A DNA stretch of 23,625 bases from a virus: positions 1 through 23,625 of IMG/VR virus record IMGVR_UViG_3300031629_000084. The stretch is one strand, 5' to 3'. Position 1 is the stretch's first letter. Each line of letters begins with the position of its first letter. The translations under genes and the position numbers were made by a program. A model generated the notes under the pieces. It made no database searches and was not told the DNA's origin. It worked only from the letters and a program-made list of their open reading frames with translations. Below are positions 22,313 to 23,625 of the stretch, one piece after another.

Positions 22313-23155
22313 ATGAAAACAGTAAATTCTTTAAGTGGTGGTAAATCTTCAAGTTATATAGCTTTAAATTACCCAGCAGACTTCAATGTGTTTAGTTTAG
22401 TTAGAACGAACGATAAAGCATGTATCTATCCTGACGCTAAAGTTAGACAGATTGTAAGTGATAAGATTGGTCGAGAGTTTGTTGGTACTACTGAGCAGGA
22501 CGATATAATAAAAATAATGCTTCAGCTATCGGAAACAGTAGATATTGATTGGGTGACAGGAGAAACATTCGAGGATATTATAGACATGAAAGGTGGTTAC
22601 CTTCCAAACTTGATGGTAAGGTACTGTACAACCCACTTAAAAATGTTACCTATATTCGATTATTGGAAGGAAAACATTAATGAAGTATGCGATATGCGTA
22701 TTGGATTCAGGAAAGGAGAGGAGAGAAGGAAAATTAATATGCTTAATAAATTAAATTCTAATGGTTATGAAGAAATAAAGATTGTAACAGATAGCAGCGG
22801 ATCTAGAAACAAGTGGGGGATGGTTGAATGGAGAAAACCTAGTTTCCCTTTAATAGATAATGGAATAAATAATAAAGACATTCAAGATTACTGGGCTAAT
22901 AATACAGAAATTAATTTCCCTAAAGGGTATTACAATAACTGCGTAGGTTGTTTTCATAGAAATCCAATGTTTTTAAATAAGATGAGCCAAGAACATCCAA
23001 ATAAAATTGATTGGTTCGCTAAAATGGAGAAACAAAACACACCTAATACATTTCGTAAAGATGTAACTTATAGCGAAATCATTAAATACAAGCCTCAGAT
23101 AGAGTTATCGTTTGAAGATTTTAAAGAATGTGATAGTGGGTTTTGTGGTCTTTAA
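22313..23155 (+). CDS. PP-loop ATPase, PAPS reductase-like, with cysteine clusters
   Basis: A 280-residue protein. It opens with the PP-loop SLSGGKSSS (SGGKSS at 8-13), typical of N-type ATP pyrophosphatases (PAPS reductase, tRNA thiolases, DndC, QueC). Further motifs are RYCTTHLKMLPIFDYW (Cys105), IGFRKGEERRK, RKPSFPLID, NNCVGCFHRNP (Cys210, Cys213) and FKECDSGFCGL (Cys273, Cys278). RYCTTHLK corresponds to the conserved C-T-x-x-x-K of PAPS reductase-like families, and the two Cys pairs could hold Fe-S or zinc. PAPS reductase-like genes are common in phages, with a role in nucleic acid modification or sulfur metabolism; the substrate cannot be read from sequence. It has its own promoter at 22290; the end of the transcript may be the T run 23166-23174. 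Confidence 0.75.
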   Translation: MKTVNSLSGGKSSSYIALNYPADFNVFSLVRTNDKACIYPDAKVRQIVSDKIGREFVGTTEQDDIIKIMLQLSETVDIDWVTGETFEDIIDMKGGYLPNLMVRYCTTHLKMLPIFDYWKENINEVCDMRIGFRKGEERRKINMLNKLNSNGYEEIKIVTDSSGSRNKWGMVEWRKPSFPLIDNGINNKDIQDYWANNTEINFPKGYYNNCVGCFHRNPMFLNKMSQEHPNKIDWFAKMEKQNTPNTFRKDVTYSEIIKYKPQIELSFEDFKECDSGFCGL

Positions 23156-23175
23156 TAGTTCCTCCTTTTTTTTTG

Positions 23176-23183
23176 TATATTTG
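23176..23183 (+). promoter_or_regulatory. Promoter of small RNA unit 1 (TATATTTG)
   Basis: TATATTTG at 23176-23183 directly after a nine-T run. The 19 bases 23172-23190 (TTTGTATATTTGACTAACA) recur at 23341-23359 with two changes, so this is a repeated promoter module. Confidence 0.65.
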
Positions 23184-23187
23184 ACTA

Positions 23188-23301
23188 ACAGTAGTATCTA
23201 CGTTACGATAGTTAGAGCTATCACATAACGCACCAGAGATGCTCTTCTCATTTAGGAATCTCTACAAGTAGCAATGACGATTGTGAAAAGTCCTTTTTTT
23301 T
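23188..23301 (+). ncRNA. Candidate structured small RNA 1
   Basis: No reading frame of note follows the promoter at 23176, but folding elements do. CGTTA (23201-23205) pairs with TAACG (23226-23230), with inner GATAG/CTATC (23207-23211 and 23218-23222) around TTAGAG. AGAGAT (23235-23240) pairs with ATCTCT (23258-23263). A short GCAAT/ATTGT stem (23271-23275 and 23280-23284) and T run 23294-23301 close it. The start is estimated from the -7 box. It is not a tRNA: no T-arm signature and no acceptor stem. Expected length about 114 nt. Confidence 0.5.
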
Positions 23302-23324
23302 ATACATATTAGTATAATTATTAG

Positions 23325-23352
23325 TTTGAATGAATACTTATTTGTATATTCG
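23325..23352 (+). promoter_or_regulatory. Promoter of small RNA unit 2 (TTTG, 16 bases, TATATTCG)
   Basis: TTTG at 23325-23328 and TATATTCG at 23345-23352, 16 bases apart. The -7 box differs from TAnnTTTG in one base, but it lies in the repeated module shared with 23172-23190. Confidence 0.55.
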
Positions 23353-23356
23353 TCTA

Positions 23357-23419
23357 ACATAACTAAATTTTTAATACTACCACTAAAACCCTCATTGTCA
23401 CGTGAGGGTTTTCTTTTTT
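23357..23419 (+). ncRNA. Candidate short RNA 2
   Basis: Between its promoter and the terminator at 23385-23419 only about 28 bases of leader remain, with no start codon frame worth calling. The product would be a roughly 60-nt RNA that consists mostly of the terminator hairpin with loop TTGTCACG. It may be a decoy/regulatory RNA or only a promoter-proximal attenuator. Confidence 0.4.
23385..23419 (+). terminator. Strong rho-independent terminator of unit 2
   Basis: AAAACCCTCA (23385-23394) and TGAGGGTTTT (23403-23412) pair perfectly over 10 bases; loop TTGTCACG; then CTTTTTT. The A-rich 5' arm could also work on the minus strand. Confidence 0.85.
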
Positions 23420-23433
23420 ACATTAACATTAGA

Positions 23434-23460
23434 TTGTTTAACATATTATTTGTATATTGC
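23434..23460 (+). promoter_or_regulatory. Promoter of small RNA unit 3 (TTG, 16 bases, TATATTGC)
   Basis: TTG at 23434-23436, TATATTGC at 23453-23460 with the same 16-base spacing as in unit 2, and the same TATTTGTATATT context. The -7 box is imperfect (TTGC for TTTG). Confidence 0.5.
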
Positions 23461-23464
23461 ACCC

Positions 23465-23546
23465 ATCGAGTAGAGGCGATACTTATAACATTTTTACAAA
23501 AAACCTATTTCAGCGAGCCCTCTACCTCCTGAGATAGGTTTTTTTT
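23465..23546 (+). ncRNA. Candidate kissing-loop small RNA 3
   Basis: Hairpin 1: ATCG (23465-23468), loop AGTAGAGG, CGAT (23477-23480), at the predicted 5' end. Hairpin 2: AAAAAACCTATTTCA (23498-23512) with TGAGATAGGTTTTTT (23530-23544), 15 base pairs with one G-T pair, and a 17-base loop. GTAGAGG (23470-23476) of loop 1 is the exact complement of CCTCTAC (23519-23525) in loop 2, so the loops can kiss. Hairpin 2 also acts as terminator. The RNA ends 18 bases before the next gene start, so it may be either a stand-alone RNA or a leader attenuator. Confidence 0.5.
23498..23546 (+). terminator. Terminator hairpin of unit 3 with loop complementary to upstream hairpin
   Basis: A 15-bp stem followed by T to 23546. 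The long 17-base loop is unusual for a terminator and carries CCTCTAC at 23519-23525. Confidence 0.75.
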
Positions 23547-23564: not shown

Positions 23565-23625
23565 ATGAAAATCAAATCCGTATTAAGTCAGGGAGCGTTT
23601 TGGCAAATCAATAAGTCATTAGCTC
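23565..23625 (+). CDS. Start of a replication-type gene (truncated by window end)
   Basis: ATG at 23565, 18 bases after the unit 3 T run; the frame is open to the end of the window. The 20 visible residues begin MKIKSVLSQGAFWQINK. The phrase …FWQ(I/V)NK… at the N-terminus is something I recall from replication initiator or replisome organiser-like proteins in Bacteroidota phages, but 20 residues are too few to call. No promoter lies between the terminator at 23498-23546 and this ATG, so expression would need read-through of that hairpin or a promoter overlapping it. Confidence 0.5.
   Translation, partial: MKIKSVLSQGAFWQINKSLA

Follow-up and report, generated by a model that had tools for sequence, protein, structure and literature searches.

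Covarying complementary loops in two hairpins mark a family of candidate attenuator leaders in front of phage replication and endonuclease genes

Can two hairpins that lie side by side in front of a phage gene pair with each other through their loops, and what would such pairing do for the gene behind them? The question arises at positions 23465 to 23546 of the viral record IMGVR_UViG_3300031629_000084, in a stretch of 23,625 nucleotides (here called the window) where two hairpins with exactly complementary 7-nt loop segments can be read from the sequence. The parts of the locus are as follows.

23449 to 23460, plus strand: promoter-like box TTTG-TATATTGC, of the Bacteroidetes -7 type TAnnTTTG, imperfect in the window
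23465 to 23480, plus strand: 5' hairpin H1, with stem ATCG (23465-23468)/CGAT (23477-23480), read from sequence; all four stem pairs covary among 30 members
23469 to 23476, plus strand: loop of H1, AGTAGAGG, read from sequence
23470 to 23476, plus strand: kissing sequence K1, GTAGAGG, the exact complement of K2; seven covarying pairs
23481 to 23497, plus strand: linker of 17 nt, single-stranded in folding
23498 to 23546, plus strand: predicted intrinsic terminator hairpin T, with an 8-nt loop and a T8 run, from sequence and folding (A-tract and 5' arm, 23498-23517; loop CCCTCTAC, 23518-23525; 3' arm, 23526-23544; T run, 23539-23546)
23519 to 23525, plus strand: kissing sequence K2, CCTCTAC, in the loop of T, the exact complement of K1; supported by covariation
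23565 to 23625, plus strand: start of the downstream gene, which leaves the window at its end; replication initiation, O-like (PHROG 678, E 7e-19; tblastn to phage replication proteins)

The complementarity on which the original prediction was built is confirmed in the sequence. GTAGAGG in the loop of H1 and CCTCTAC in the loop of T would form seven Watson-Crick pairs, and each occurs once on its own strand in the 23.6-kb window. The terminator loop had been described as 17 bases long but is actually 8 nt, closed by three further pairs (GAG/CTC), and in both hairpins the 8-nt loop consists of one unpaired base followed by the seven paired bases. RNA folding of the 89-nt leader (z = -6.0) placed T in the minimum free energy (MFE) structure, and the short H1 was weak by itself. 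With its stable hairpin and U run, T has what is expected of an intrinsic terminator, as predicted from sequence and folding. The element also lies where it had been placed, behind the promoter-like box and ahead of a gene; the ATG of this putative replication-initiation gene is 19 nt past the end of the leader, and H1 is predicted to be the 5' end of the transcript. A complete 268-amino-acid homologue of the downstream protein is present in contig L006.

We then asked whether the element recurs elsewhere. An exact 16-mer search returned identical and near-identical leaders, together with two loci (L005 and L014) that have the 5' hairpin of the window and a different terminator that still carries CCTCTAC. 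The pattern GAGTAGAGGC N28-58 CCTCTAC matched 83 viral stretches, and in several dozen of them both stems and a T run are present, mostly with an ATG nearby; this set was picked for one loop sequence and is uninformative on loop covariation. Pattern matches of the L018 kind were excluded because they have no terminator, and L077 was excluded as structurally weak. Homologues were found in several dozen viral contigs and in the cultured Bacteroides phage B40-8, which has one leader ahead of a Rha gene with the loops CCGCCAA/TTGGCGG, predicted to start just upstream of 28402 and to stop near 28495 in NC_011222; phage BF702P1 has the same leader, and BF766P1 has a version with one mismatch. The records are mostly metagenomic viral contigs, several of them interrelated, and locus counts are not counts of independent events; the numbers of different loop pairs given below (11 and 16) are a better measure.

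Most members are inferred to infect Bacteroidetes, on the grounds of their promoter type and because related genes or leaders occur in Flavobacterium and Bacteroides phages. The GTAGAGG form was absent from 395 Bacteroidota genomes (2 pattern matches, both unlike the leader and fewer than in the reversed control), and this absence, with other loop types outside the search, points to a phage element rather than a host one. In the genome-contig scan, none of the matches listed and read showed both stems. Rfam 15 gave no match at gathering, either for the window or for 12 member loci, only sub-threshold ones (maximum E 5), BLASTN of the region against annotated phages gave chance matches only, and we found no description of the element in open-licence papers. 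As judged from sequence, the element is a widespread regulatory RNA family in Bacteroidetes phages that is missing from Rfam 15.

If the two loops pair, homologous loci should change them together. A generic scanner for a hairpin and a terminator with complementary loops gave 53 matches on the viral loci, compared to 4 each for the reversed non-complement control and for shuffled sequence; its matches on the minus strand were mostly mirror images or weak. Because the scanned loci were partly picked for one loop type, we consider the two blind tests, gene-anchored and loop-free, to be the stronger evidence. For the gene-anchored test, viral relatives of the protein encoded downstream of one leader (L019) were collected with the RNA ignored, which yielded 32 loci with an upstream region. 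All 32 had a leader with complementary loops, some of them ahead of an interposed gene, and 11 different loop pairs were represented (GTAGAGG in 9 loci, GTGCGAG in 7, GTACGAG in 6, GTCGCAG and GTAGGAG in 2 each, and six singletons, three of which are paired at 6 of 7 positions).

For the loop-blind test, viral contigs were searched with one terminator scaffold whose loop was left free (N8). Each of the 22 loci retrieved matched its upstream hairpin at 7 of 7 positions. Only two loop types occurred on this scaffold, GTAGAGG/CCTCTAC and GTCGCAG/CTGCGAC, each ahead of several different genes, and the replication-gene types MNTGQ/MNIGQ and MKYQ were each seen with both. Thus the varying loops of homologous loci stay complementary in both tests, as the kissing-loop idea of the original prediction demands. 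Single comparisons show the same behavior. L216 and L218 are near-identical in this region and differ in the 5' hairpin (in L218 also in the H1 stem), in part of the linker and in the terminator loop; 3 of 7 paired loop positions have changed and the match is kept. In phage G021, two leaders have the 5' stem in common and different loops, yet each loop is matched.

Covariation in both stems and in the loop-loop helix, the check proposed with the original prediction, was quantified in an alignment of 30 distinct members at the pairing positions only. We found 97.6% of cells paired, compared to 64.0% in shuffled alignments, and two-sided (compensatory) changes at every one of the 14 pairs, the seven between the loops among them. 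The covariation score was 0.905, compared to 0.208 for shuffled and at most 0.173 for slid versions. All seven pairs of the loop-loop helix covary, with 98.6% of cells paired and no G-U, as expected of a kissing loop. Since the stem arms of the alignment were picked for pairing and one loop recurs in many rows, it is the gene-anchored and loop-blind tests that carry the case for the helix between the loops. Of 16 different loop pairs, 13 are complementary at seven positions and 3 at six, again with no G-U, and the 5' loop has the consensus GUNNNRG, approximately, with a free middle. The tips of the two hairpins match each other despite their changing sequence, which indicates that the match itself is under selection.

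What genes lie behind the leader? By profile and tblastn matches, a replication initiator typically occupies the first or second position. The initiators of other members match PHROG 428, 186, 4707 or 270, with support from tblastn to phage replication proteins, and a DnaB-like helicase lies behind the initiator in L222 and L230. The second downstream group consists of homing endonucleases (NUMOD4-HNH and GIY-YIG), which sometimes sit between the leader and the initiator. Not every HNH relative has a leader, and L330, whose replication gene is closely related to that of the window (82% identical), lacks one; the element is therefore not essential. A near-identical leader in L015 is followed by a different small gene and then by an HTH-type protein.

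Several features of the surrounding DNA were recorded. In the window, an upstream stretch (23172-23310) has a promoter-like box TTTGTATATTTG and, behind it, a segment of about 125 nt with a T8 end; the preceding gene (22313-23155) reads like a phosphoadenosine phosphosulfate reductase, and gene and segment both appear to be inserted, as they are missing in L004 and L007. At 23341-23419, a second promoter-like box precedes a short segment with a terminal terminator (AAAACCCTCA...TGAGGGTTTT), which has no kissing partner. Phage G021 (L266, L267) is T4-like, with a gp32-like gene near its two endonuclease leaders. In place of the Bacteroidetes box, these leaders have a common AT-rich upstream block with TATTTATA (which is TATAAATA on the opposite strand), and the host of this phage is probably different.

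The position of the leader was equally regular. T ended 2 to 20 nt before the ATG in 45 of 47 members, and a TAnnTT(TG/GC/CG) box ended 9 to 30 nt upstream of the 5' loop in 41 of 47. The original prediction had offered two readings, a stand-alone regulatory RNA and a leader of the following gene. The leader reading is favored and the stand-alone RNA disfavored, because the gap from T to the ATG leaves no space for a second promoter and because the downstream genes are mainly of two kinds. Together, these comparisons demonstrate, at the level of sequence, that both hairpins and the helix between their loops exist, that the element is placed as a leader, that certain gene types recur behind it and that loop specificities are discrete.

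T was formed in the MFE structure of all 47 members analyzed and is strong alone (about -15 to -31 kcal/mol). K1 and K2 are 39 to 59 nt apart, and the longer linkers of other members usually contain a small hairpin. No conventional antiterminator was seen in the member folds, which leaves the loop contact as the sole conserved interaction with T that we found. By a rough geometric estimate, the ratio of available to needed linker length for kissing in cis with T closed is 1.01 ± 0.33. Some variants of this architecture were seen. Six leaders (L045, L049, L050, L078, L079 and L267) have an AGTA/GAA internal loop between the lower stem and the three apical pairs of the terminator hairpin; it resembles the sarcin-ricin (loop E) motif, occurs in unrelated lineages, is reversed in L005 and L324, and may orient the terminator loop for kissing. 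Upstream of position 2001 in L324 lies a variant with an 8-nt match (GTTCTCAC/GTGAGAAC) and a wider 5' loop, ahead of a NUMOD4-HNH relative, which the scanner missed. In L233 and L235 an extra hairpin with a T run follows the promoter-like box and precedes the kissing leader, so that two tandem terminators may lie ahead of the gene.

Because T is strong and present in all 47 MFE structures, and the loop helix is the only conserved contact found, we propose that these phage-gene 5' leaders are transcription attenuators gated by the loop-loop helix, a reading to which we give somewhat better than even chances. RNA polymerase would start at the promoter box and transcribe H1, a short linker and then the terminator just ahead of the start codon. 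With the terminator directly against the start codon, expression of the gene would depend on read-through, and the seven Watson-Crick pairs between the two loops would set how often read-through occurs. The loop match probably controls transcription of the genes behind the leader in this way. We are more tentative about the direction of control, which we put well below even chances. In cis, H1 may catch the emerging terminator loop, delay closure of the base of T and favor read-through; in trans, a leader once released may bind nascent leaders of its own loop type and bring termination back. Such competition would amount to dosage feedback on replication and to interference among phages of the same type. 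It could equally be that kissing with both hairpins formed stabilizes termination.

One potential alternative is that nothing is switched: T would shield the gene from upstream transcription, and kissing would stabilize T or protect the terminated RNA. The 8-nt loops with their flanking pairs suit a kissing complex that is complete while both hairpins stay closed, and tight control of expression is known for homing endonucleases (PMC2988022). However, T alone is already so strong that selection would have little to gain, and neither discrete loop types nor orthogonal loops in one genome are explained, which makes a pure stabilizer or insulator unlikely. The orthogonal loops are those of four phages (G014, G015, G016 and G021) that have two leaders each. 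Their loops do not cross-pair; the 7-mer duplex energies are -8.5 to -10.7 kcal/mol for cognate pairs versus -4.3 to +0.4 kcal/mol for cross pairs. G014, G015 and G016 (L296, L282 and L299) each have two NUMOD4-HNH genes, each gene with its own leader type, and their second leader type has a common framework with a loop pair that differs per phage (GGACGAG, GTACCAG and GGTGAAG).

The orthogonal loops of all four two-copy genomes agree with a role for cross-pairing, as do the discrete loop types found on a single scaffold, with the caveat that, among so many loop types, two leaders in one genome would often differ anyway. From this orthogonality and from the allelism of loop types, leaders of one loop type probably compete in trans. 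A fuller version would be an RNA-only specificity system in lytic phages, in which the loop types of replication and endonuclease leaders are interchangeable, with pairing in cis and, within a type only, cross-repression in trans; we regard this version as speculative and rather doubtful.

Could the trans partner be some other RNA? A terminated transcript of about 85 nt might act as a stand-alone phage small RNA on other RNAs, with its position before a gene being incidental, and a promoter box of its own, a 5' hairpin and a terminator do make a complete small-RNA gene. However, extra copies of K1 or K2 as a separate trans partner were not in excess within 3 kb of the leaders (12 observed versus 18.1 expected), and an incidental position agrees poorly with a terminator 2 to 20 nt ahead of the ATG in 45 of 47 members and with replication and endonuclease genes behind it. 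We consider this explanation quite improbable. A CTCTAC at 23260, in the upstream segment of the window, was rejected as an extra copy since it is missing in the relatives L004, L007 and L015.

Control could also be exerted after read-through, with translation of the read-through mRNA, and not termination, as the target of the terminated leader or the kissing complex. The base of the hairpin is near the start codon, and there is a precedent in the prophage RNA IsrK, a terminated leader that activates its own read-through mRNA in trans (PMC4825925). A proper U run behind T argues against this idea, and an unsystematic look among the members noticed no conserved base pairing of the leader with the start region; we judge it very unlikely. 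GTAGAGG...CCTCTAC does make an inverted repeat at the DNA level, but that it serves for binding of a protein dimer or for DNA looping is scarcely credible, since each half sits in a hairpin loop with an independently covarying stem, the spacing ranges from 39 to 59 nt and the repeat sequence changes freely.

The proposed attenuator can be placed beside known systems. In phage P4, a leader-derived RNA pairs with leader sequences and causes premature termination of the replication genes (PMC4825925). The P4 CI RNA with seqA-seqC of this satellite phage is the closest in logic, having complementary elements in the untranslated leader of a replication operon that act via termination; P4 uses a processed antisense RNA and two target copies in a lysogenic satellite, whereas here there is one loop pair, both partners are in hairpins, and one of these is the terminator. 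Position and genes fit a replication-operon leader with premature termination (termination here being predicted), and the separate antisense element with additional leader target copies found in P4/c4-type systems has no counterpart in the copy counts given above. Systems of this type also act in trans as prophage immunity, on which the observation here is the absence of the GTAGAGG form from the 395 Bacteroidota genomes. Plasmid attenuators of the pT181/pIP501 type also have a terminator just ahead of a replication-initiator gene and loop-loop RNA control. The layout of terminator before initiator is common to both; in those plasmids the partner is an opposite-strand counter-transcript, and here the proposed partner is a hairpin in the same leader. 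ColE1 RNA I and RNA II form fully paired 7-bp loop-loop helices of changeable specificity; they are two RNAs that control a primer in trans, unlike the two loops within one leader described here.

IsrK of prophage Gifsy-1 likewise exists in two forms, a short terminated RNA and a read-through mRNA, of which the short one acts in trans (PMC4825925). The likeness lies in a phage leader with short and read-through forms, which are predicted in our case; the difference is that IsrK acts on translation, for which we noticed no such pairing. Leader hairpins of T4 homing endonucleases (I-TevI, mobE and segB) are RNA structures that limit endonuclease expression (PMC2988022), but they sequester the ribosome-binding site, whereas the hairpin here is a predicted intrinsic terminator whose loop has a kissing partner. 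The put-type cis antitermination RNA of phage HK022 has a conserved sequence recognized by RNA polymerase; no such sequence is apparent here, as both stems and both loops vary freely with pairing kept.

The family sits at the gene that starts phage DNA replication and forms a natural collection of orthogonal kissing-loop leaders with one loop pair apiece. It offers a clean test case for whether pairing of another loop with that of a terminator hairpin is able to govern termination. That one scaffold carries two loop types, and that pairs within a genome are orthogonal, raises the question of RNA-only interference between phages. If the RNA-only system is real, it would combine copy-number feedback with exclusion of same-type competitors and would favor new loop pairs as escape types, and the loop types would then resemble the incompatibility groups of plasmids.
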